In this document: positions 14,497 through 26,586 of the stretch, one piece after another | Layout of the letters: each line of letters starts with the position of its first letter | Numbering within the stretch: position 1 is the first letter of the stretch | Origin: Saprospiraceae bacterium | Lineage (GTDB): Bacteria > Bacteroidota > Bacteroidia > Chitinophagales > Saprospiraceae | DNA length: 52,841 nucleotides | Direction of reading: 5' to 3' | Assembly (NCBI GenBank): GCA_025056735.1 | Contig: JANWVR010000100.1 | Location: 1 to 52,841 of the forward strand | The notes under the pieces: model-generated | Told to the model about the DNA's origin: nothing | What the model saw: the letters and a program-made list of their open reading frames with translations, nothing else | Database searches by the model: none | Made by a program: the position numbers and the translations under genes

Positions 14497-15939
14497 TCAC
14501 CACTTCCACCCGGCTTGCTGCGCCAATTTCTCAAGAAATGACCCAAGGGAAGGCTCTAAGTTTTTGATTTGATGCACTAATTCTCGGATTTCCGACAGCT
14601 TATCCAAGTCCGGGCAATGGCGAGGCATAAAAGCCGCTAACGAGGCCTTGAGCCGCTCTAAGGTTTCTCGCTGAGTGTGGAGGGCGGCAACGGCGTAGTA
14701 CCAGCGCAATACGGGCAGGTAATACGGCTTGTCTAAGTAAGCCGCGTCGCGTTCGAGGAGTCTGTATTTGGTACAGACCTTAAGCAGCCGATCGAATTTT
14801 CGCTGCCCAAAGAGGCTTTCCAAATAACCCGTGAAGAACAGATGCCAGCGGTGTTGGAAAATTTCTTTAGGGTAGGCGCGCAGGTAGGTTTCCGCGTAGT
14901 TTTCAGCGGCAAGGTATTGCCCTAAGTGGTTCAGGCATTGGACATAAAGGCTTACGAAGCCAATCTTGTTGTGGAAACTGGGCGTTTTCTTGCTTTCGGG
15001 TTGGGCATTCTTGAGCAGCGCTAAGGCCTCCCGATATTTTTTCTGGCGGAGCAGGACAGCACACAAGTTGTTCACGTAGTGAACGTAGTCTAAGTTTTTC
15101 ACCCGGATGGAAAGGTAGCCGTAGTACTCAGCTTTTTCAAATTCTCGGAACTTAACGTGCAGTAGCAGCCGGTTGCCGTAGTAATTGATCAGGATGCGTT
15201 TGGAATAGAAGTTGCCCTGGGCCAATTGTTGTTCGAAGTATTCGTATTTTTCTAACAGTGGCTCAAAGCGGCGGTAGTTGTAATAGATAAAGGTGAGCCG
15301 CACTAAGGCCATGTAGCGGTTCCAGCCGTCGAGGGTTTCGTCGTAGAAGAGGTCGGTCAGGCGTTTTTCCCACTGGATGGAGGGGGTAGGGTCGCCGGCG
15401 TATTGTTTGACGATGTCGTGGGTGGCCTTGTGCAGTTCGTCGCTGATGCGCAGGGAGCGTTGCCAGGCAGACTCGTTTTTTTGGAGGAACAGTTCTACCT
15501 GTTCATGTTCGGGGTAGCGCATGCGAATGAGCAATAGATGGCGATACGCTTGCGCCATTTCATAGAATTTGACGAAATAAAACTCCGTGGGCCGGCAGGT
15601 TTTGATTTCGTGCAGGAGGCGCGCTTCGGTTTCGGGTTCTACAGTGTCGGTAAGTACTTTGCGCTCGGTATCGAGTATCCAGGCTAAGTGCAGGTCTACG
15701 TCGAGTGCGCTGAGTCGGTCAGCAATCCAGTGTTTGAGGTTGGAATATTTGCGCTTGTCTATGGTGTCGTCGAAGGGCTGACAGTCCTGGTCGTTGAGGC
15801 GGTGGCAGTTGGCGTGTACTTGCTCTAAGATGGCCACCTTGACCTTGTCGTCGAAGTGCTGGTGCGAGAGCAGCCATGTCGTCTCGTGCGGGAGCAGCGT
15901 ACGGGAAAATTCGAAGAATTTTTGCAGTTTACTGCGCAT
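14497..15939 (-). CDS. Hypothetical helical-repeat protein
   Basis: A 480-residue cytoplasmic protein with no signal peptide or membrane segment. It is almost wholly alpha-helical in character and very rich in Leu, Tyr, Phe, Lys and Glu. Tetratricopeptide-like helices stand out at YVHYVNNLCAVLLRQKKYRE followed by ALALLKNAQ, and at YVQCLNHLGQYLAAENYAET. Similar proteins with a conserved N-terminus resembling LPHETTWLLSHQHFDD exist in relatives as I recall them, but I can name no function. Use of TTT, TTG and AAA codons seems a little higher than in neighbours. A TATTTTCG -7 element lies 9 bases before the ATG, so the mRNA may start close to the start codon. Confidence 0.72.
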   Translation of the reverse strand: MRSKLQKFFEFSRTLLPHETTWLLSHQHFDDKVKVAILEQVHANCHRLNDQDCQPFDDTIDKRKYSNLKHWIADRLSALDVDLHLAWILDTERKVLTDTVEPETEARLLHEIKTCRPTEFYFVKFYEMAQAYRHLLLIRMRYPEHEQVELFLQKNESAWQRSLRISDELHKATHDIVKQYAGDPTPSIQWEKRLTDLFYDETLDGWNRYMALVRLTFIYYNYRRFEPLLEKYEYFEQQLAQGNFYSKRILINYYGNRLLLHVKFREFEKAEYYGYLSIRVKNLDYVHYVNNLCAVLLRQKKYREALALLKNAQPESKKTPSFHNKIGFVSLYVQCLNHLGQYLAAENYAETYLRAYPKEIFQHRWHLFFTGYLESLFGQRKFDRLLKVCTKYRLLERDAAYLDKPYYLPVLRWYYAVAALHTQRETLERLKASLAAFMPRHCPDLDKLSEIRELVHQIKNLEPSLGSFLEKLAQQAGWKW

Positions 15940-16093: not shown

Positions 16094-16837
16094 CTACAGC
16101 GTCAGCCCACCGTCAATGCTGATCGTTGCGCCATTGATGAAGGCGGCTTCGTCGGAGGCGAGAAAGGCATATAAAGCAGCGATTTCCTCCGGTTGGCCGA
16201 GGCGGCCGAGAGGCGTTTTGTCTTTCATGCCCTGGAGGACGTTTTCCGGGATGGCATCCATCATTTCGGTGTGGATGAAGCCCGGCGCCACGGCGTTGGC
16301 AGTGATGCCTTTGCGGCCGAATTCTTTTGCCCACACTTTGGTCATACCGATGACGCCGGCCTTGGTGGCCACGTAATTGGTCTGGCCGAAGTTGCCATAC
16401 AGGCCCACCACGGAGGCTGCCGACAGAATGCGCCCCCAGCCCTGGGCTTCCAGGTAGGGATAGACAGCCTTAGTGCAGTGGAAAACGCCAGTCAAGTTGA
16501 CGGCCAGGACGGCATTCCATTGCTCGAGCGTCATTTTTTTGAACGATGCGTCCTTCGTTATGCCGGCGTTATTGACTAAGATGTGAATGCTGCCAAAGGT
16601 TTTGACTACCTCGGCTGCCGCGGCTGTTACGGCCTCAAAGTCGGTGGTGTCCACGTGGAAATAGACAGCCGGCAGCTGCTGTTGCCGGCAATGGTCGAGC
16701 AGAGCGTTGCCTCGTTCGTCGTTGATGTCCCAGATGGCGACGTTGGCGCCTTCCTCCAGAAAGCGGAGCACGGTGGCTTTGCCGATGCCACTGGCGCCAC
16801 CCGTGATGATGGCTGTTTTGTTTTGCAATCGTTTCAT
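16094..16837 (-). CDS. fabG: FabG-like 3-oxoacyl-ACP / acetoacetyl-CoA reductase (SDR)
   Basis: A short-chain dehydrogenase of 247 residues from the ATG at 16837. An ATG three codons earlier is also possible. It carries the NADP(H) motif TGGASGIG at residues 12-19, the N-N-A-G motif in ILVNNAGITKDASF, the catalytic Ser in RILSAASVVGLYG and the catalytic Tyr and Lys in TNYVATKAG. The region KGITANAVAPGFIHTEMMDA and the end GATISIDGGL fit the FabG/PhaB group that reduces 3-oxoacyl thioesters. Whether it serves fatty acid synthesis, polyhydroxyalkanoate synthesis or another pathway is not clear. No acyl carrier protein or synthase gene is next to it. It diverges from the symporter-hydrolase gene. 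Confidence 0.8.
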   Translation of the reverse strand: MKRLQNKTAIITGGASGIGKATVLRFLEEGANVAIWDINDERGNALLDHCRQQQLPAVYFHVDTTDFEAVTAAAAEVVKTFGSIHILVNNAGITKDASFKKMTLEQWNAVLAVNLTGVFHCTKAVYPYLEAQGWGRILSAASVVGLYGNFGQTNYVATKAGVIGMTKVWAKEFGRKGITANAVAPGFIHTEMMDAIPENVLQGMKDKTPLGRLGQPEEIAALYAFLASDEAAFINGATISIDGGLTL

Positions 16838-17179
16838 AGTGGGCAAAGTTAGGCGGGCCCGTCTGCTTCATCCAGCGACTGTGCGGGAACGGTGGTTTTT
16901 CGGTCAAGGGTGGTTTTAGCGAGATAAAATCAGGGTTCAGACGCAAAAAAATATGGCATAATTCATTAAATATCAAAAAAATAAAAATAGGGTCCTTGGC
17001 GCCGATATGTTGCTGTGGGCTGTTCGGTCAGCCAAAAAAAAGATGAGGTGTGCGGTTGGCAAAGGGCGTTTTGGGGAGAACAGAAGCCTTATTTGCCCGC
17101 TAACTTGGCTCGGCATATGATTGCCTCGAGCAGTAACGCTGCGCAAGAGTCTTTTACAGGAAATATCAAAACAACAGCG
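16838..17179. other. Divergent intergenic region, AT-rich
   Basis: About 340 bp between the fabG-like gene and the symporter fusion. Positions 16920-16990 are markedly AT-rich compared with the rest of the window and probably hold promoters for one or both genes. I find no exact TAnnTTTG match I would trust. An in-frame ATG at 17015 upstream of the fusion reads as a Cys, Gln and Trp-rich tail with no family character, so I treat it as noncoding. Confidence 0.4.
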
Positions 17180-19675
17180 ATGCAAAACAGTGACTGGATT
17201 TATGCGACCATAGCGCTCTTAGTTGTTTATGCGGGAGTGCTGATTTTGCTGGCTGTTCGGGCTGCCCGACGTACCCGGACGCTGGCTGACTATGCCCTGG
17301 GGGCGCAAGGTTTTTCGCCGGTAGTGGTGGGGCTATCGCTGGCGGCGAATATCACGAGTGCGGCCACGTTTATCATCAATCCCGGTTTTGTGGCCATGTT
17401 TGGGTGGAGCGCTTTCCTGGCTATGTCGGTGGTGTTGCCCTTGGGGTTGTACCTATCGCTGATAGTGCTCACGCGCAGTTTTCGGCGCTACGGCTCGTCG
17501 GTGAAGGCGCTTACCCTGGCGCAATGGATGGGCAAGCGTTACGAGAGTCAGGGGCTTGCGCTCTGGTTCGCCGTGTTGTCGTTCCTGCTGGTTACGTTTA
17601 TTGTGCTGATTTGCGTAGGCCTGACTAAGGTGCTGGCGGGGGCGCTGGGCGCTCGCGAGTTGCCGGTGCTGATAGGGTTGGTAGTGGTGGTTTTTGGCTA
17701 CATGATGTTTGGCGGGGCTACTTCTATGGTGTACACTAATGCCGTTCAGGCGGGTTTGATGCTGGTAGTAGCCGTCGTCTTGCTGGCATCGGGTTGGAAG
17801 TATTTCGACCACGGAACGGGCGGCTTTTGGGAAAAATTAGCCGCTATTGACCCTTTGCTTGTCCAGAGCACCAACCCGAAAAGCCCGCTGTTTCGGGATT
17901 GGTTTGAGGTGTTTTTTTGTAATTTCATCGTTGGCATAGCCATCGTGTGCCAGCCACACATCGTAACGCGATCGCTTTTGTTGCGCAGCGAAAAAGACAT
18001 CAACCGCTATTTGCTGGTCGCCCTGGTCGCTGAGTCGGTATTTTTTGCGGTGTTGTTTGTTGGGTTTTATGCCCGTTTGACGTTTCCAGAGCTGACTCTC
18101 AACGGCACGGCATTGAAGATGGACGGTATCGTTTCGGCTTACGTGGTGCGGGTGTTCCCGGTGGGCGTGGGTTTGCTGGTGGTATTGGGGCTGCTGTCGG
18201 CCGGGCTTTCGACGTTGGAGGGACTGATCCAGTCGCTGTCCACCACGTTCACGAACGATTTGATAGCGCCGCTGACGCAGCGATGGAACGGCGGCAGGCC
18301 GATGCCGGCCGAGCGATTGACCCGGGTGAACAAGGGAGTGATTGTGGTGCTGGCAGTGGTTGCGATTGTCTGGAGCTACCAGCAGTTGCTGTACCCAAAC
18401 CTGAGCGTGGGCATTCTGGCGCAAAACGGCGTATATGCCTTTTTCTCAGCGGCTTTTGTACCTGTGCTGTTCGGCATTTACGGCAAAAATGTGCCTCGCC
18501 TCGCGCCCGCCTTGGCATCGGTAACTGCCGTAGTGGTGCATTTTTCGGTGTACTACGGCGCCCTCACGCCCTACACAACGGGAGCGGTGCGCAATCCGGC
18601 GGTAGCAGCAGCCCTGGCCATTCTGGCCGCCACTGCGGTAGGGGGAGCGGTTTTTTTATGGAAGAAAAAAGCAATTTCTGCCCGAGCAGTAGCCACCGGT
18701 GTGGTATTGAGCGCTGCGCCTGCGCTGTTCGCTTTTGAAACGCGTGCTCACTCAGAGCACAATTGTGCATCAACGGCTTCCTCTCATTTCACGTGCACCG
18801 ATACGCTGCCTATGCAAACCATATCGTACCCCGCTGACCTTCGCTACATCGCTCTCTCTGGGGGCAAAAAGATCGCCTACCTCGATAGAGGCGCTGGCGA
18901 GCAGACCTTGCTTTTCCTTCACGGACTGGGCAGCAACCTGAAGTGCTGGCAAAAGAATTTGGATACCCTCAGCCGCCGTTTTCGGTGCATAGCGCTTGAC
19001 TTGCCGGGCTACGGTATGTCCTCCAAAAGCGACGATTATCCGTATGGAATGGCGTTTTTCGCCGATGTTGTTCGCGAATTCATGGACTCTCTGCACCTGC
19101 AAAACGTCGTCTTGGTAGGGCACTCGATGGGCGGGCAGATTGCCCTTACAGAGGTGCTTCGCGGCAACGACCGGATTAAGAAAATGGTGCTGCTGGCCCC
19201 TGCGGGTATTGAAACTTTCTCCGAACAGGAAAAGACGTGGTTTCGCACCATCTATACGCCCGAAATGCTGATGAATACCTCAGAGGCGCAAATCCGCAGA
19301 AACTTTGAGTTAAACTTCGTGCAGTTTCCGCCCGACGCCGAATTCATGTACCAAGACCGCCTTCGTCTTCGCCAGACGAGCGAATACGCCGCCTATTGCC
19401 GGATGATTCCGAAGTGCGTCCAGGGCATGCTCAATGAGCCTGTTTTTGAGCGCTTAGGAGAAATTCGCCTGCCGGTGTTGATTGTTTATGGAGAAAACGA
19501 CGCCCTCATCCCGAACCGGTTTTTGCACCCCCGACTGACTACCCAACAGATAGCGCAATTGGCGCAAGAGCGCATCCCTGGTAGCCAATTAGTCTTATTG
19601 CCCAACTGCGGCCATTTCGTTCAATGGGAGGGCGCGGCTGGTGTCAATGAAGCGATAATGCGCTTTTTAAGGTGA
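17180..19675 (+). CDS. Sodium:solute symporter fused to an alpha/beta hydrolase
   Basis: One uninterrupted frame of 831 residues joins two usually separate proteins. Residues 1-530 are a sodium:solute symporter with about 13 hydrophobic helices and the typical strings LADYALGAQGFSPVVVGLSL, ANITSAATFI, LAQWMGKRYES, GATSMVYTNAVQAGLMLVVA and SAGLSTLEGLIQSLSTTFTN. Residues 545-831 are a complete alpha/beta hydrolase: oxyanion region FLHGLGSNLKCW, nucleophile elbow VGHSMGG with Ser649, candidate acid Asp774 in YGENDALIP and His812 in NCGHFVQWE. A linker of about 25 residues rich in Ser, Thr and His joins them. I chose the ATG at 17180, where the first helix begins. An internal ATG at 18812 could give a free hydrolase. 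Substrates are unknown. The gene stands alone. Confidence 0.85.
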   Translation: MQNSDWIYATIALLVVYAGVLILLAVRAARRTRTLADYALGAQGFSPVVVGLSLAANITSAATFIINPGFVAMFGWSAFLAMSVVLPLGLYLSLIVLTRSFRRYGSSVKALTLAQWMGKRYESQGLALWFAVLSFLLVTFIVLICVGLTKVLAGALGARELPVLIGLVVVVFGYMMFGGATSMVYTNAVQAGLMLVVAVVLLASGWKYFDHGTGGFWEKLAAIDPLLVQSTNPKSPLFRDWFEVFFCNFIVGIAIVCQPHIVTRSLLLRSEKDINRYLLVALVAESVFFAVLFVGFYARLTFPELTLNGTALKMDGIVSAYVVRVFPVGVGLLVVLGLLSAGLSTLEGLIQSLSTTFTNDLIAPLTQRWNGGRPMPAERLTRVNKGVIVVLAVVAIVWSYQQLLYPNLSVGILAQNGVYAFFSAAFVPVLFGIYGKNVPRLAPALASVTAVVVHFSVYYGALTPYTTGAVRNPAVAAALAILAATAVGGAVFLWKKKAISARAVATGVVLSAAPALFAFETRAHSEHNCASTASSHFTCTDTLPMQTISYPADLRYIALSGGKKIAYLDRGAGEQTLLFLHGLGSNLKCWQKNLDTLSRRFRCIALDLPGYGMSSKSDDYPYGMAFFADVVREFMDSLHLQNVVLVGHSMGGQIALTEVLRGNDRIKKMVLLAPAGIETFSEQEKTWFRTIYTPEMLMNTSEAQIRRNFELNFVQFPPDAEFMYQDRLRLRQTSEYAAYCRMIPKCVQGMLNEPVFERLGEIRLPVLIVYGENDALIPNRFLHPRLTTQQIAQLAQERIPGSQLVLLPNCGHFVQWEGAAGVNEAIMRFLR

Positions 19676-20071
19676 TTTTTGAAATTTTATTTAGAACTGC
19701 GAGGTTAAAATCCGGTCAGTCCACCTGCTTTTTCAGCGTATCTAAACTTTTAAAAATCAATTCTTTGTGGCTCTTTTCTTCCTTTCAAGTTTTTTGGGTC
19801 AAGGGATGAAAAGCGCACCTTCTGCTTCGGCGCAACATTGTTTTAGATTTACCTTCGTAGCGCAATAATCCTTGATGTATTATTGGCGGAAATGCCGCTG
19901 AAATTTTAGTATCCCGTCTTTATTCAGGCGGGCTTGCTAGGGTCTGGGCCAAATGAATGAAGGCTGGTGGGGTAGCGTCCCGTGCGGCAATGGGATGTTT
20001 ATTGCGCCGGCAAGGGGGAGCATGTTTCTTACAACATTAGATTGTTTTTCTCTTTCACAAACACATCGAAA
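19676..20071. other. Intergenic region and long leader of the TonB-dependent receptor
   Basis: Nearly 400 bp without a gene. It holds a -7 element at 19850-19857 and then about 210 bases of leader before the receptor start. The leader contains a small hairpin, CCCGTC pairing with GGCGGG near 19913-19932. I do not see the conserved boxes of the cobalamin or thiamine riboswitches. Confidence 0.35.
19850..19857 (+). promoter_or_regulatory. -7 promoter element for the TonB-dependent receptor
   Basis: TACCTTCG fits TAnnTT(T/C)G, in an AT-richer stretch. It implies a leader of about 210 bases. Confidence 0.4.
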
Positions 20072-22690
20072 ATGCGAATGCGTATGAAAAAACTGTTTAC
20101 GTTCTGCTGTGTCCTTTTGAGCCTGAGTATGGCAGCACAGCGCGGCACTGTTAGTGGTAAAGTTACTGACCAGGCGAACAACGAGCCGCTTCCAGGGGCG
20201 TCTATTGTGGTAGATGGCGCTACGGCCAGTGCTACAACCGGCGCTACCACTCAATCGGATGGCTCCTACACCCTCTCTTTACCTGCAGGCAACTATACGT
20301 TGCTCTTCTCCTTTATCGGCTACGAAACCAAGACGCTCCCCGTGCGTGTGGAGGCCGGCCGTGCCATCACGCTTGATGTGGCGCTTGCCGAGTCGGGCAT
20401 TCAGGGCCACGAGGTGGTCGTGTCTGCCAGCCGCCGGGCAGAGAAGCGCACCAATGCGCCGGCAACCATTTCCGTGATTAACGCCAGGGCGATTGCCGAA
20501 TTGCCGTCTTTCAACGTGGCGGAATTACTGGGCCGACAAAAAGGCGTGGACTACGTGCGCTCGGGTGTACTCGGCATTGGCATCAATGCGCGCGGTTTCA
20601 ACTCGGCATTTAATCCTAAAAACCTGCAAATCAACGATAACCGCTTCTCTGCGCTCATCGCCACAGGCTTACCGCTCGGTGCGCTGAGCACCACTGTGAA
20701 AGAAGACATCGAGCGCATCGAGGTCATTCTCGGCCCGTCGTCGGCTTTGTATGGCCCTAACGCCCACAATGGCCTGCTCAACACCATCACCAAAGACCCG
20801 CGCACCTCGGAGGGAACTACGCTCGTCTTTGGCGCTGGCAACCAGAAGGTGCTGACCGGTCGTTTGCGTCACGCCATGAAATTAGGAGAAAAATTCGCCT
20901 TCAAAATCAGCGGTGAATACACCCAGGGTGAAGAGTTCGAATTCACAGACACCGTGTACGTTCTCAGTGCAGCGGCACCAGGAGGAGCCTTTGCCTTGCC
21001 GGAGTATTTGCTCGATCGAAACTTTAACTCGCTGCGCGGTGAGGCTCAGCTGTATTATAGTGTAAACAAAACCAGCGACATCATCATCGGCTACGGCGCC
21101 AGCAACAGCAACAACATCGGCAACACCAACGCCGGCCGCAACCAAATCCGAGACTGGCGCGTGTCGTGGCTGCAGGCCCGCTACGTGTCGCCGCGGCTCT
21201 TCCTCAACGTGTACAACACGTGGAGCACGACCGACAGCACCATCGCCATGAACCAGCGCACGGTGAACTATTTCTCCTACAAGGCCAACGGCTTCTCCGA
21301 AGAGGAAGCGCGCAACCGCTCCATCGCCACCCAATATCTGCCGCTTTCTCCCACAACGGGACTTCACCTGCCCAGAGGCGCCCTCTTCCAGGACTATTCC
21401 CAGCGCCTGAACGCGGAGGCCCAGTACAACAACTCCGTCGCCCAACTGTTCGACTTCATCGCGGGTATCCAGTACCAGCGTGATAAAGCCAACAGCCGCC
21501 AGACGTATCTGCTTGATAAGGCCGGTCCCATCACAATTGACCAATTGGGTGGTTACCTGCAATTAGAGCGTAAGTTTGGCCCCGTGCGCGCCGTAGTGGC
21601 TGCCCGCGCCGACAATCACGAACTCTACGGCTTCAACTTCATTCCAAAAGCGGCCTTAGTGTACTCCACCGACAACAGCGCCCTGCGCCTGACCTACGGC
21701 GAAGGCATCGCCGCGCCGACCATCCTCAACCTAAGTGCCAATATTTTCGGTGGCCTCCTGTTGGGCAATGGCGAAGGCTTCACCATCAAAGAAGTGGACG
21801 TAACCACCAACACTGTCGTTGGGCAATATCAAGTGCCCAAACTCGAGGTCGAGCGCATCCGAACCCTCGAATTGGGCTACAAAGGCCAACTCGGTAAGCG
21901 AGTCTACGTAGATGCAAATGCTTACTTCAACCGCTCGCAGAACTTCCTGAGCCCTGCCGTTAACGTTGCCGCCGACCGCGAACTGTTTGACCATGACGGC
22001 AACCCGAACACACCCAGAATTCCCAAAATCCGAGGCTATGGCGTGCTGCGCGGCAATCAGCCCATCGGCGAAATCGCTGCTGTCACTCCTCTGCCCGATG
22101 GCGACCGAGGCGCTGACATCGTGTTGACGTACGTCAACTTTGGCAAGGTTAATACCTACGGCTTCGACCTCGGCCTGAACGTGAATCTGGCCAAGGGCCT
22201 ATCGGGCGTGCTCAACTACTCCTGGTTCGGGTACGATCTGGACCGGAACGACCCGAGCAACGACGGCAACCGCAACGGCGTTGTGGACGAAAACGACCTG
22301 CCCATCAATACCCCTACTCACAAAATAGGTGCGGGTCTGAACTACGTCAGAGGCGGCTTTTTCTCTAACATCTTCGGCCGCTGGTACAACGCATACGACT
22401 TCTTCTCCGGCATTAACGTGGCCGCCGCAACCAATCAAAACCTGATCTACGCCGGCAGTCCTGTTGTTGAGAACCGACGGGTTGGCCGGTCGTTCAACTA
22501 CGGCCCGCTGGGCGGCTTGCTAAACCTCGACATCAGCGCGGGCTACACCTTTAAGGAGCGTTACACCCTCTCGGCGCAGGTGGTCAACGCCTTGGGCGTC
22601 GAGATTCGGGAGTTTGTGGCCTCGCCGCCCATCGGACGGCTGTATTCGGTAGAATTGAAAGTCAATTTACCCAGTTTCTCAAGGCGATAA
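20072..22690 (+). CDS. TonB-dependent outer-membrane receptor
   Basis: An outer-membrane active transporter of about 872 residues energised by TonB. Three in-frame ATGs lie close together (20072, 20078, 20084), each followed by the signal peptide MKKLFTFCCVLLSLSMAAQ. The order of domains is a carboxypeptidase-regulatory-like beta sandwich (GTVSGKVTDQANNEPLPGAS), the plug (EVVVSASRRAEKRTNAPATI, then ELLGRQKGVDYVRSGV and RIEVILGPSSALYGPNAHNG) and a 22-strand-type barrel ending YSVELKVNLPSFSRR. The barrel contains Asp/Asn-rich loops such as LDRNDPSNDGNRNGVVDEND. No SusD partner follows, which argues against a glycan uptake pair. The substrate, possibly a metal chelate or cofactor, cannot be told. 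A strong terminator follows the stop. Confidence 0.92.
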   Translation: MRMRMKKLFTFCCVLLSLSMAAQRGTVSGKVTDQANNEPLPGASIVVDGATASATTGATTQSDGSYTLSLPAGNYTLLFSFIGYETKTLPVRVEAGRAITLDVALAESGIQGHEVVVSASRRAEKRTNAPATISVINARAIAELPSFNVAELLGRQKGVDYVRSGVLGIGINARGFNSAFNPKNLQINDNRFSALIATGLPLGALSTTVKEDIERIEVILGPSSALYGPNAHNGLLNTITKDPRTSEGTTLVFGAGNQKVLTGRLRHAMKLGEKFAFKISGEYTQGEEFEFTDTVYVLSAAAPGGAFALPEYLLDRNFNSLRGEAQLYYSVNKTSDIIIGYGASNSNNIGNTNAGRNQIRDWRVSWLQARYVSPRLFLNVYNTWSTTDSTIAMNQRTVNYFSYKANGFSEEEARNRSIATQYLPLSPTTGLHLPRGALFQDYSQRLNAEAQYNNSVAQLFDFIAGIQYQRDKANSRQTYLLDKAGPITIDQLGGYLQLERKFGPVRAVVAARADNHELYGFNFIPKAALVYSTDNSALRLTYGEGIAAPTILNLSANIFGGLLLGNGEGFTIKEVDVTTNTVVGQYQVPKLEVERIRTLELGYKGQLGKRVYVDANAYFNRSQNFLSPAVNVAADRELFDHDGNPNTPRIPKIRGYGVLRGNQPIGEIAAVTPLPDGDRGADIVLTYVNFGKVNTYGFDLGLNVNLAKGLSGVLNYSWFGYDLDRNDPSNDGNRNGVVDENDLPINTPTHKIGAGLNYVRGGFFSNIFGRWYNAYDFFSGINVAAATNQNLIYAGSPVVENRRVGRSFNYGPLGGLLNLDISAGYTFKERYTLSAQVVNALGVEIREFVASPPIGRLYSVELKVNLPSFSRR

Positions 22691-22759: not shown

Positions 22760-23758
22760 GTGTCAAATCCAGTCATTGCCTCTGTCGGCGCTGCAGCGCC
22801 TGAGCGCGTCTTGCCAAACAGCTACTTCAACGAGCTGCTGGGCGAAGATGTAGATACCTGGCTGCGAGAGAATGTCCAGATTTATGAGCGGCGCTGGTGT
22901 GCGGATGGCGAAAGCACCGCCACCTTAGCCGAACAGGCTGCCCGACAGGCCCTCGAACGAGCAGGGCTCGAGGTATCCGATCTCGACCTGCTCATTGTGG
23001 CTACCGATACGCCGGAGTATATCTCTCCGTCCACGGCAGTGGTCGTGCAACATCGCCTCGGGGCAAAGAAAGCCGGCACCTTCGACCTTAACGCCGCCTG
23101 TGCGGGCTTCGTTACCGCCTTGGACGTCGGCGCCAAATACATTCGCTCCGACGAGCGCTATCAAAACGTCTTAGTCATTGGCGCTTACGCCATGAGCAAG
23201 TATTTAAACCTGGAGGACAAAAAAACCGTAACGCTTTTCGCCGACGGCGCCGGAGCGGTGTTGCTCCGGGCTACGCCAAATGAAGGCCAGCCCTCTGCGG
23301 GCTTCTTGGCCAGCGAACTGCGCACGCTTGGCGAATACCACGACTGGATGGGCATTTACGCCGGTGGCACACACGAGCCGGTAACCGAGGCTGCCATAGC
23401 CAATCACCACCACCAGCTGCAATTTGTGCGCAAGTTCCCAAAGGAACTCAACCCAACCATGTGGTCAGACATGGCCCAGCAGCTCTGTCGCCGCATTGGT
23501 GTCGAGCCACATGAGGTACAGCACTTTTTCATCACCCAAATCAACATCAACAGCATCTGGGAAACCATGGACCGGCTCGGTGTGCCCCGCGAGCGCGCCA
23601 CTACTGTGATGCACCGCTTTGGCTATACGGGCAGTGCCTGTATTCCCATGGCATTTAATGAGGCGTGGGAAAAGGGCGCCGTGCGTCCTGGCGACCTGTG
23701 CTTTTTCATCGGGTCGGGCGGCGGCCTGGCGTTCGCAGCGGCGGCATTTCGGATTTAA
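22760..23758 (+). CDS. KAS III (FabH)-like thiolase-fold enzyme with altered triad
   Basis: A 332-residue protein with a GTG start and the KAS III layout: IVATDTPEYISPSTA, the nucleophile Cys114 in LNAACAGFVTALDVG, FADGAGAVLL, and the end LCFFIGSGGGLAFAAAAFRI. When aligned by eye with E. coli FabH, whose triad is Cys-His-Asn, the His position in the H-Q-A-N motif is Thr259 (ITQIN) and the Asn position in G-N-T-S is Tyr289 (FGYTGSACIP). Cys is kept. FabH uses His and Asn for decarboxylative condensation, so this protein may transfer acyl groups without decarboxylation, or use other residues. The next gene, an acyl-CoA ligase, starts 15 bp after the stop, so the two form an operon and the ligase may supply the acyl thioester. 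Confidence 0.8.
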   Translation: MSNPVIASVGAAAPERVLPNSYFNELLGEDVDTWLRENVQIYERRWCADGESTATLAEQAARQALERAGLEVSDLDLLIVATDTPEYISPSTAVVVQHRLGAKKAGTFDLNAACAGFVTALDVGAKYIRSDERYQNVLVIGAYAMSKYLNLEDKKTVTLFADGAGAVLLRATPNEGQPSAGFLASELRTLGEYHDWMGIYAGGTHEPVTEAAIANHHHQLQFVRKFPKELNPTMWSDMAQQLCRRIGVEPHEVQHFFITQININSIWETMDRLGVPRERATTVMHRFGYTGSACIPMAFNEAWEKGAVRPGDLCFFIGSGGGLAFAAAAFRI

Positions 23759-23773: not shown

Positions 23774-25351
23774 ATGGCAGTGTATCAGCAAGATTGGTCG
23801 GCCAAATGGGCCGTGTATTTTCCTGAAAAGATTGCTTTCAAGGAATTTGAAACCGGCAGAACACTGACCTACGGTCGCCTCAATCGCCTCGGGAATCGCC
23901 TGGCGCACTTCCTATCTCGCCATTTTGGCCTCCAGAAAGGCGATCGGGTGGCTGTTCTGGCCGAAAACTGCTTAGAATATCTGTGCCTGTTCGCCGCCGC
24001 GCAAAAAGCGGGATTTATCCTGGTGCCGCTCAACTACCGCCTTGCTCCGCCTGAACTCGATTACATGCTTGCCCTCGCTAAGCCCAAAGTGGCCTTAGCC
24101 GAAAGCAAGTTTCAGCATCTGTTCGACGCTACGACGGCTTTCCATACCCTGCCTCATCGCTGGTCGGTAGAGGCGCTCGCCGAAGTGCTCTTGGCGGAGG
24201 AAATCGCTGACCTTGACTCGCCCTTCCCGTTAGTGCCGGTGGACGACGACGACCCCATTTTCATCCTCTTCACTTCAGGCACCACAGGGTTTCCTAAAGG
24301 CGCTCTATACACACACGGCATGCTGTTTTGGAACAGCATCAATACCGCCATGTCGTTGATTGTCAACACGGAAAGCCGAACCCTTAACGTCATGCCACCC
24401 TTCCACACGGGCGGCTGGAACGTCCTCACTACGCCGTTCTGGCACCACGGCGGCTACACCTGCCTGTTGAAAAAATTCGACCCTGGCGCCGTCTTGCAAC
24501 TGCTCGAAGCAGAAGCCTGCACCATTTTCATGGGCGTGCCTACCATGCTCAAAATGCTGGCCGAGCATCCCGATTTTGAAAAGACCGACCTGTCTCCGCT
24601 CCTCTACATCATCGTGGGCGGCGAGCCGATGCCTATTCCGCTTATTGAAAAATGGCACAACAAGGGCGTGTTCATCCGCCAGGGCTACGGCATGACCGAA
24701 GTAGGGCCCAACCTCACCAGCCTGCACCAGCGCGATGCTGTGCGCAAAAAGGGCAGTATCGGCCGTCCCAACTTTTACGTCGAGATCCGCATTGTGGACG
24801 AGCACGGCAACGACCTGCCGCCCAACCAACCCGGCGAGCTCCTGTTGCGAGGACCGATGGTAACGCCCGGCTACTGGCGAAACCCAGAGGCCACCCGGAG
24901 CGCTTTTGTCTTGCCGGAGGGCGCCTCGCCCACAGCCGATCCCATGCTGCTCCACAGCCGCGGCGCCTGGTTCCGCACGGGCGACTTAGTCAGACAGGAC
25001 GAAGAGGGCTATCTTTTCGTGGTAGACCGGGTGAAGAATATGTTCATCAGCGGCGGCGAAAACGTCTATCCGGCCGAGGTAGAGCGAGTTTTGGTGCAAC
25101 ACCCCGCCGTCTCAGAGGCCGCCGTCGTTGGTGTGCCGGATGAAAAGTGGGGCGAAGTAGGGCGGGCTTTCGTAGTCATGAAAACCGGCCTTCCGCAAAA
25201 CCCTTCTGAGGCAGAGCAGGAACTGACTCAGTTCTGCAACAGCCGTCTGGCCAAATACAAGACGCCCAAGCAGTTCGTCTTTCTGACCGCTTTGCCCAAA
25301 AACGACACCGGGAAAATTGACCGAAAAGCGCTGAAATCTTTTAGCCATTAG
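23774..25351 (+). CDS. AMP-dependent acyl-CoA synthetase
   Basis: An adenylate-forming ligase of 525 residues that activates a carboxylic acid with ATP and joins it to CoA. Motifs in order: phosphate loop ILFTSGTTGFPKGALYTHG, QGYGMTEVGP, RTGDLVRQDEEGYLFVVDR, the hinge VKNMFISGGENVYPAEVE, and the catalytic Lys in NDTGKIDRKAL. The overall type is that of medium- or long-chain fatty acid CoA ligases, though aromatic acids cannot be excluded. It is 15 bp downstream of the KAS III-like gene and about 165 bp upstream of paaB, which has its own -7 element. A phenylacetate-CoA ligase (PaaK) has a different sequence type, so this is not PaaK. Confidence 0.88.
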   Translation: MAVYQQDWSAKWAVYFPEKIAFKEFETGRTLTYGRLNRLGNRLAHFLSRHFGLQKGDRVAVLAENCLEYLCLFAAAQKAGFILVPLNYRLAPPELDYMLALAKPKVALAESKFQHLFDATTAFHTLPHRWSVEALAEVLLAEEIADLDSPFPLVPVDDDDPIFILFTSGTTGFPKGALYTHGMLFWNSINTAMSLIVNTESRTLNVMPPFHTGGWNVLTTPFWHHGGYTCLLKKFDPGAVLQLLEAEACTIFMGVPTMLKMLAEHPDFEKTDLSPLLYIIVGGEPMPIPLIEKWHNKGVFIRQGYGMTEVGPNLTSLHQRDAVRKKGSIGRPNFYVEIRIVDEHGNDLPPNQPGELLLRGPMVTPGYWRNPEATRSAFVLPEGASPTADPMLLHSRGAWFRTGDLVRQDEEGYLFVVDRVKNMFISGGENVYPAEVERVLVQHPAVSEAAVVGVPDEKWGEVGRAFVVMKTGLPQNPSEAEQELTQFCNSRLAKYKTPKQFVFLTALPKNDTGKIDRKALKSFSH

Positions 25352-25836: not shown

Positions 25837-26586
25837 ATGCAAGCCAGTTTCCCTTACGTACTGCAATTGGGCGACAATGCCCTCATTCTTTCGCACCGCC
25901 TCAGCGAGTGGTGCGGCCACGGCCCTGTACTGGAACAAGACATTGCCTTGACCAACATCGCTTTAGACCTGCTGGGCCAGGCTCGCCTGCTGCTGACCTA
26001 CGCGGGCGAAATCGAAGGTCTGGGCCGCACGGAAGACGACTTAGCCAGCTTCCGCGACGCGCACCAGTTCCGCAACGTCCTCCTCGTCGAGCAGCCCAAC
26101 GGCGACTGGGCGCACACCATCGTGCGGCAATTCTTCTTCGACGCCTACCATTACTACCACTACCAGGCCCTGCTCCAGAGCCGCGACGAGCGTTTAGCTG
26201 CCATTGCTCAAAAAGCGCTCAAAGAAGTAACTTATCACCTGCGCTACTCCAGTGAGTGGACTATCCGCCTGGGCGACGGCACGGAAGAGAGCCACCGCCG
26301 TATGCAGGAGGCCGTAGACGACCTCTGGATGTACACCGGCGAGCTGACGACGCCCAACGAAGTAGAACGCGAGGCCGCCGAGGCTGGCGTCGGCTCCGAT
26401 CTGACGCAGATACGCCCTCTCTGGGAGGCCAAAGTGCGCGAAGTGCTCGAAGAAGCCACCCTGCAGATACCTGGCAACTCCTGGATGCAAAGCGGCGGCA
26501 AAGATGGGCGTCATACCGAACATTTGGGCTACATTCTGGCCGAAATGCAGTTTTTGCAGCGCGCCTATCCGGGGCTGCAGTGGTAG
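25837..26586 (+). CDS. paaC: Phenylacetyl-CoA epoxidase subunit PaaC
   Basis: A 249-residue ferritin-like structural subunit that pairs with catalytic PaaA in the phenylacetyl-CoA epoxidase. Typical strings are DNALILSHRLSEWCGHGPVL, EQDIALTNIALDLLGQARLL, FRDAHQFRNVLLVEQPNGDW, KEVTYHLRYSSEWTIRLGDG and SGGKDGRHTEHLGYILAEMQ. The order paaB-paaC is normal, but paaD and paaE, which usually follow, are absent. The next gene is convergent and ends 9 bp away. The missing subunits must be elsewhere in the genome if the complex works. Confidence 0.93.
   Translation: MQASFPYVLQLGDNALILSHRLSEWCGHGPVLEQDIALTNIALDLLGQARLLLTYAGEIEGLGRTEDDLASFRDAHQFRNVLLVEQPNGDWAHTIVRQFFFDAYHYYHYQALLQSRDERLAAIAQKALKEVTYHLRYSSEWTIRLGDGTEESHRRMQEAVDDLWMYTGELTTPNEVEREAAEAGVGSDLTQIRPLWEAKVREVLEEATLQIPGNSWMQSGGKDGRHTEHLGYILAEMQFLQRAYPGLQW

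Follow-up and report, generated by a model that had tools for sequence, protein, structure and literature searches.

The window analysed here, a stretch of 52,841 nucleotides from a Saprospiraceae bacterium, carries a gene (17180..19675, forward strand) in which a sodium/solute symporter (SSS) and an exported alpha/beta hydrolase, neighbours in an uptake cluster conserved in Bacteroidota, appear to have been joined in frame. What would once have been the signal peptide of the hydrolase now follows symporter helix 13 and has no ATG of its own. We put the probability at roughly 0.7 that this account holds as a whole, that is, that the cluster's symporter and exported hydrolase were fused in frame, that the ex-signal peptide carries the hydrolase to the periplasm, and that the product serves a pathway of uptake, hydrolysis and import. 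The fusion itself, its recurrence in relatives, selection on its linker (in one genome pair) and the conserved cluster are the elements that the sequences, as we read them, bring out directly.

From ATG 17180 to the stop at 19675 the gene is a single open frame of 831 codons, with no internal stop upon translation. The mechanical ORF starts further upstream, at GTG 17015 (886 aa); we take ATG 17180 as the start because the matches of close relatives begin at query residues 1-8. Both domains score well above their Pfam cut-offs, SSF (PF00474) at residues 38-438 with 113 bits (cut-off 22.8) and Abhydrolase_1 (PF00561) at residues 576-819 with 121.1 bits (cut-off 25.8). The symporter part comprises residues 1-494 (17180..18661, forward strand) and has 13 predicted transmembrane helices, N-terminus out and C-terminus in, based on the SSF match and AlphaFold helices. 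The hydrolase domain, defined by Pfam, Foldseek and an alignment of the triad, spans residues 552-831 (18833..19672, forward strand). AlphaFold models both halves of the protein well (mean pLDDT 92.1). The candidate triad of the initial annotation, Ser649, Asp774 and His812 (forward-strand codons 19124-19126, 19499-19501 and 19613-19615), is correctly positioned and does not vary in any of the 37 aligned sequences that include the hydrolase. Where that annotation saw one polypeptide with two intact halves in an unusual order, we agree; the literature we searched contains no report of an SSS-hydrolase fusion. The annotation overlooked the relatives in which the two genes are separate and the signal-peptide-like segment at the junction. 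The genome itself has one full copy of the gene.

To what families do the two halves belong? The symporter half matches the SSF profile and is predicted to adopt the LeuT-like fold, with 13 helices (13-15 expected) and the N-terminus outside. Against the NCBIfam superfamily model TIGR00813 it scores 107.2 bits where the cut-off is 184, and it is therefore at most a divergent SSS member; it likewise falls short of the equivalog cut-offs for PanF (81.5 of 328.05) and PutP (78.3 of 515.5). Foldseek matches it to SiaT (5nv9/5nva, TMt 0.80/0.79) and also to SGLT2, and PmSiaT (5nv9/5nva, E 1.7e-9) is the sole solved chain found by sequence. In the alignment to SiaT, an Ala, a Ser and a Thr stand opposite A339, S342 and S343, which we take to form the sodium site. 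The likeness to this sialic acid symporter concerns the symporter half (TMt 0.80), whereas PmSiaT has no hydrolase and its substrate is not implied for the protein described here. The hydrolase half belongs to the alpha/beta hydrolase superfamily by profile match and Ser-Asp-His triad, with esterases, PlaF (6i8w, rank 2), HsaD and a PHB depolymerase among its Foldseek matches. Among the matches listed (25 of 36 families), it stays below the equivalog cut-offs for PcaD (109.7 of 255.85), MenH (85.3 of 208.55), BphD/HsaD (90.2 of 400 for HsaD) and PHA depolymerase. Nor does the chain qualify as a CbrA-type sensor kinase: the seven Pfam families listed for it are SSF and hydrolase-type, with no STAC, PAS or kinase domain.

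An open frame alone is weak evidence for a genuine fusion because 11-13% of shuffled linkers stay open. Evidence also comes from relatives, where the initial annotation had proposed looking for the same domain order. Whole-protein searches covered 149 relatives and overlapping samples of 42 genus, 396 order, 395 class, 398 family and 395 phylum genomes. The loci fetched include 48 in which both halves lie adjacent and in the same direction; the halves are separate genes in 33 and fused in 15, so the order does recur and the worry that relatives might always carry two separate genes at this point is not borne out. The ratio of 15 to 48 is no frequency, because loci came in order of match quality, an order biased towards fused genes, and the fetched set stops short of many weaker matches in the 398-genome family and 395-genome phylum samples. 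Among the matches listed for the phylum sample (395 genomes), and judged by frame length, only the window's own frame is long enough for both halves. Spacing was recorded for 29 of the 33 separate pairs: 17 overlap by four bases (ATGA), 4 overlap by 14, and 8 lie apart. Since these other 33 adjacent pairs are separate genes, we regard the window gene as a fusion of a conserved operon pair.

Four further genomes in the window's clade (G011, G035, G302, G900) are fused at the same place, with domain identities of 68-88% and indels of whole codons. Between the window and L009, residues 494-551 give an NG86 dN/dS of 0.21, and changes fall at 31 of 56 third codon positions versus 28 of 112 first and second positions (p 1.5e-4). 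The same codon-position test is not significant for window-L010 or L009-L010 (p 0.19 each), and the one comparison made for the linkers of a second group of fusions (clade C, below) offered few differences. As judged from codon patterns, then, the linker appears to be under purifying selection in frame in one genome pair of three. A base-call or assembly artefact that joined two genes was considered and rejected, given the four additional same-place fusions and the in-frame selection against L009. Several of the genome records are MAGs, and the pair in G330 breaks at an A9 run, which shows that errors or genuine frameshifts happen; even so, we deem an artefact extremely improbable here.

Between helix 13 and the Ser/Thr/His-rich linker stands a signal-peptide-like segment (residues 495-520, 18662..18739, forward strand) that consists of KKKAISAR and then 17 mostly hydrophobic residues, and that we propose as helix 14. 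The flexible linker follows (residues 521-551, 18740..18832, forward strand; pLDDT below 50 at residues 520-547). The segment stands at the position taken by the signal peptide in free hydrolases, which usually start with such a peptide, sometimes with a lipobox; the nearest unfused relatives (L011, L015, L016, L018) all have one. Seven of the 15 fusions, the window's included, have a signal-like segment at the junction and eight have a hydrophilic linker. A tripartite signal rule passes all seven junctions of the first type and none of the eight of the second (clade C); as a control, 3-13% of shuffles of those seven junctions pass. A stricter pattern rule passes 24 of 33 free hydrolases, and its nine misses comprise four that by eye resemble signal peptides and five with no leader or none that is clear.

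The initial annotation had further suggested that an internal ATG (Met545, 18812..18814, forward strand) might give a free hydrolase. Met545 corresponds to a Met in the mature part of free hydrolases (for example, ...TSSMQDLPYP in L015), and in a leaderless sub-clade the start is a Met near this place. We consider ATG 18812 a poor start because its product would be leaderless, whereas free hydrolases that adjoin a TonB receptor carry signal peptides. More broadly, one might imagine that internal initiation supplies a free hydrolase besides, or in place of, the fusion, given that this ATG is present and that the signal-like segment of G853 and L009 has an in-frame ATG at its front. Yet the window has no ATG between helix 13 and the signal-like segment, so that translation from 18812 would give a hydrolase without export, and G302, G005 and L010 also lack a good start by eye, which makes internal initiation quite unlikely.

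A stronger competitor is a polyprotein in which signal peptidase cuts after the ex-signal segment to yield the same two separate proteins that relatives have, at a fixed 1:1 ratio. This is a variant of our preferred explanation, with which its odds overlap, and we give it a substantial chance that falls somewhat short of even. Sites of textbook appearance survive at the junction in G302 (between GAAA and Q) and G005 (between FANA and Q), and a Pro followed by LFA is kept in the window and in L009, but to the eye the site is worn in the clade that includes the window, above all in L010. Bradyrhizobium fbcH (cytochrome b/c1) is a precedent for a cleaved polyprotein; a precedent of this type was not found in the literature searched, which lay mostly outside subscription journals.

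Which side of the membrane does the hydrolase face? SSS proteins have their N-terminus outside (PMC7918813). With the N-terminus outside and 13 helices, the C-terminus of the symporter comes to lie inside. The positive-inside count for the window is 21 K+R in versus 8 out, and K+R is higher inside than outside in 40 of 40 symporters (alignment A1). A further helix with its Lys-rich end inside would therefore lead the hydrolase into the periplasm. On these grounds (13 helices, K+R counts and the signal-like segment) we can supply the topology prediction that the initial annotation had called for: in the seven signal-type fusions, the window's among them, the hydrolase should be periplasmic. It should stay cytoplasmic in the eight hydrophilic-linker fusions if the symporter has 13 helices, and a periplasmic location is therefore no general rule. 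AlphaFold does not place helix 14, because the window model has one long helix (residues 473-519) in which helix 13 and the signal-like segment are continuous and whose end is of low confidence (pLDDT about 61 at 511-520). In the G302 model, helix 13 (473-494) is separate from the ex-signal helix (500-514, low confidence). The continuous helix in the window model, together with the expected placement of the hydrolase in the eight hydrophilic-linker fusions, would suit a scenario where the ex-signal segment fails to span the membrane, which leaves the hydrolase in the cytoplasm to act on imported substrate. We think this unlikely: the window keeps the Lys-rich end and the hydrophobic stretch, the gene adjoins a TonB receptor, and there are the signal peptides of the nearest unfused relatives.

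In the tree the 15 fusions fall in four groups. Clades A (G000, which is the window, with G011, G035, G302 and G900), B (G005) and D (G853) are of the signal type, with a Lys-rich and then hydrophobic segment between helix 13 and the hydrolase, whereas clade C (G061, G865, G915, G967, G1008, G989, G939, G1019) holds the hydrophilic-linker fusions. At least five changes between fused and separate states are required, one of which is the split copy in G330. In that genome (L072/L131) the pair is split at the A9 run inside the otherwise fused clade C, which may reflect an error, decay or a programmed frameshift. AU tests, for which the groups were picked after the tree was seen, reject all fusions as one clade and also A, B and D as one clade. 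On the shortest histories, clade C and the A/B/D group have separate origins. Within A/B/D, three fusions and one fusion plus two splits are equally short. Eight of the nine unfused rows in this region of the tree have the ATGA overlap, as do L030 and seven more distant f20 rows; we prefer three fusions because splits would have had to re-create this overlap. Taken together, the tree points to at least two, and probably four, origins of the fusion. Note that the 48-row tree omits duplicate fetches (L038, L042, L043, L044, L046-L065) and loci without a hydrolase in the fetched stretch, that 13 of its 48 rows were added by hand, and that 'signal peptide' in it denotes a hydrophobicity rule (15-residue mean above 0.9). 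G150, in which a 34%-identical symporter comes after the hydrolase, was left out, and L116 (G853) covers only 48% of the alignment columns.

Outside the 48 rows, L037 (G042) and L147 encode a 394-aa protein in which symporter helices 1-2 and 13 are joined to the hydrolase. In the G042 protein, the stretch equivalent to symporter residues 1-62 matches at E 7.6e-12 and that equivalent to about 481-512 at E 1e-4, against E 0.59 for the best reversed-sequence control. An in-frame loss has thus removed the core of the symporter and spared the junction, which suggests that fusions of this sort are produced as a single chain.

What might such a chain do? The cluster begins with two genes on the reverse strand: one (14497..15939) that is conserved in the cluster and whose protein has no NCBIfam match at 1e-20 and no Pfam match at 1e-4, and one for a short-chain dehydrogenase (SDR; 16094..16846), FabG- or acetoacetyl-CoA reductase-like by profile matches. 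Divergent from these, the symporter and hydrolase are followed on the forward strand by a TonB-dependent receptor (19982..22690; Pfam barrel, plug and CarboxypepD_reg), a KAS III-like protein (22760..23758; profile and structure-chain matches) and an AMP-forming acyl-CoA ligase-like protein (23774..25351; profile matches). The cluster is seen in Saprospiraceae and in Allomuricauda. The phenylacetyl-CoA epoxidase subunit PaaC lies directly downstream of the cluster in the window (25837-26586). The KAS III-like protein keeps Cys114, but Thr259 and Tyr289 replace the His and Asn of Aquifex FabH, a pattern found in 21 of 21 homologue rows (three of them duplicate fetches). On our assumption that Cys114 is catalytic, and on the roles we presume for the His and Asn positions of FabH, this protein is likely not a normal decarboxylating synthase. 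Five genomes (G071, G129, G055, G047, G082) keep the hydrolase and TonB receptor and have a different SSS protein (34-37% identical) after the receptor; since that protein replaces this one in all five, some SSS partner would seem to be needed.

From this setting we infer a topology, a substrate class and a coupling of the two activities. The TonB-dependent receptor would pass a compound resembling an ester or lactone to the periplasm. There the hydrolase would cut it, having been delivered by the ex-signal segment, which would enter the membrane from the cytoplasmic side with its Lys-rich end in and serve either as an internal signal or as helix 14; the joined symporter would import the acid product with Na+, and the ligase (by CoA activation), the KAS III-like protein and the SDR would process it. 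In leaderless forms, a small substrate may instead be imported first and cut inside.

Signal segment and receptor do tend to go together: in the 38 of 48 rows for which flanks were fetched, some on contigs that end close by, 26 pairs have both a signal segment and an adjacent TonB receptor, 11 have neither and 1 has the signal only. For G853, scoring of the neighbouring receptor relied on Pfam, as the window's receptor gave no match to it. Each state changes only three times on the tree; of three independent pairs, two agree and one shows no difference (sign test p 0.5). We treat the association as a lead only. Ten of the 11 pairs without signal and receptor adjoin a divergent SDR of 45-50% identity; the two of these SDRs that were checked both pass the acetoacetyl-CoA reductase model TIGR01829, and one of the ten loci, L134, also has a ligase, a second hydrolase and the other SDR, that of the receptor-type cluster, nearby. 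PHB storage, raised by these SDRs near leaderless pairs, was discarded, with PhaC_N in 0 of 19 genomes at E 1e-10. An OleABCD-like olefin cluster was likewise considered for the combination of KAS III, hydrolase, ligase and SDR and rejected: 3fk5 and similar chains, which we take to be Ole proteins, are weak partial matches, and the matches listed for the ligase (25 of 94 families) include no OleC-type model.

Several known systems share part of this arrangement. The lysophospholipid transporter LplT and the acyltransferase Aas likewise pair a transporter with an enzyme, both acting on one compound. Many bacteria have the two side by side in an operon and others seemingly as one ORF, and the separate proteins interact by two-hybrid assay; Aas, however, works on the cytoplasmic side, and the available text describes no captured signal peptide (PMC11416262). 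The fused TRAP transporter SiaQM has parts that are separate in most relatives (about 25% fused) and an extra transmembrane 'fusion helix' that keeps the topology, but both parts are transport subunits and the helix is not traced to a signal peptide in the text available (PMC10942642). The sensor kinases CbrA and MxtR/CrbS combine a 13-helix SSS domain with a C-terminal partner in one chain, the partner being STAC/PAS/histidine kinase or another signalling domain and, as far as the source at hand goes, no hydrolase (PMC7918813). PlaF has a similar hydrolase fold on the periplasmic face, anchored by one N-terminal helix, yet is described without a transporter, and its phospholipase activity is not carried over to the window hydrolase (PMC9132575). 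Literature searches for such a fusion, for its cluster and for a route from signal peptide to helix, in which few subscription journals were covered, brought up no SSS-hydrolase fusion. LplT, for its part, is presumably not an SSS symporter. As far as we have checked, then, both the SSS-hydrolase pair and the signal-to-helix route are new among transporter-enzyme fusions.

Coupling of transport and hydrolysis is the natural reading of a fused chain, and it can be taken a step further. More tentatively, and at odds we would place nearer one in three than even, the protein might be a covalent periplasmic hydrolase-importer, with the enzyme tethered at the mouth of the symporter by a domesticated signal peptide and handing over its product, and with a cytoplasm-facing counterpart built independently from the same operon pair. 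Either way, the family offers a natural experiment in the merging of a membrane protein with an exported enzyme encoded next to it: its four fusion groups sort by whether the signal-like segment was kept or not, and opposite sides of the membrane are predicted accordingly. For a widespread Bacteroidota cluster, the fusion suggests that an orphan hydrolase and an orphan SSS symporter are linked through substrate and product, and makes the question of their substrate a testable one.
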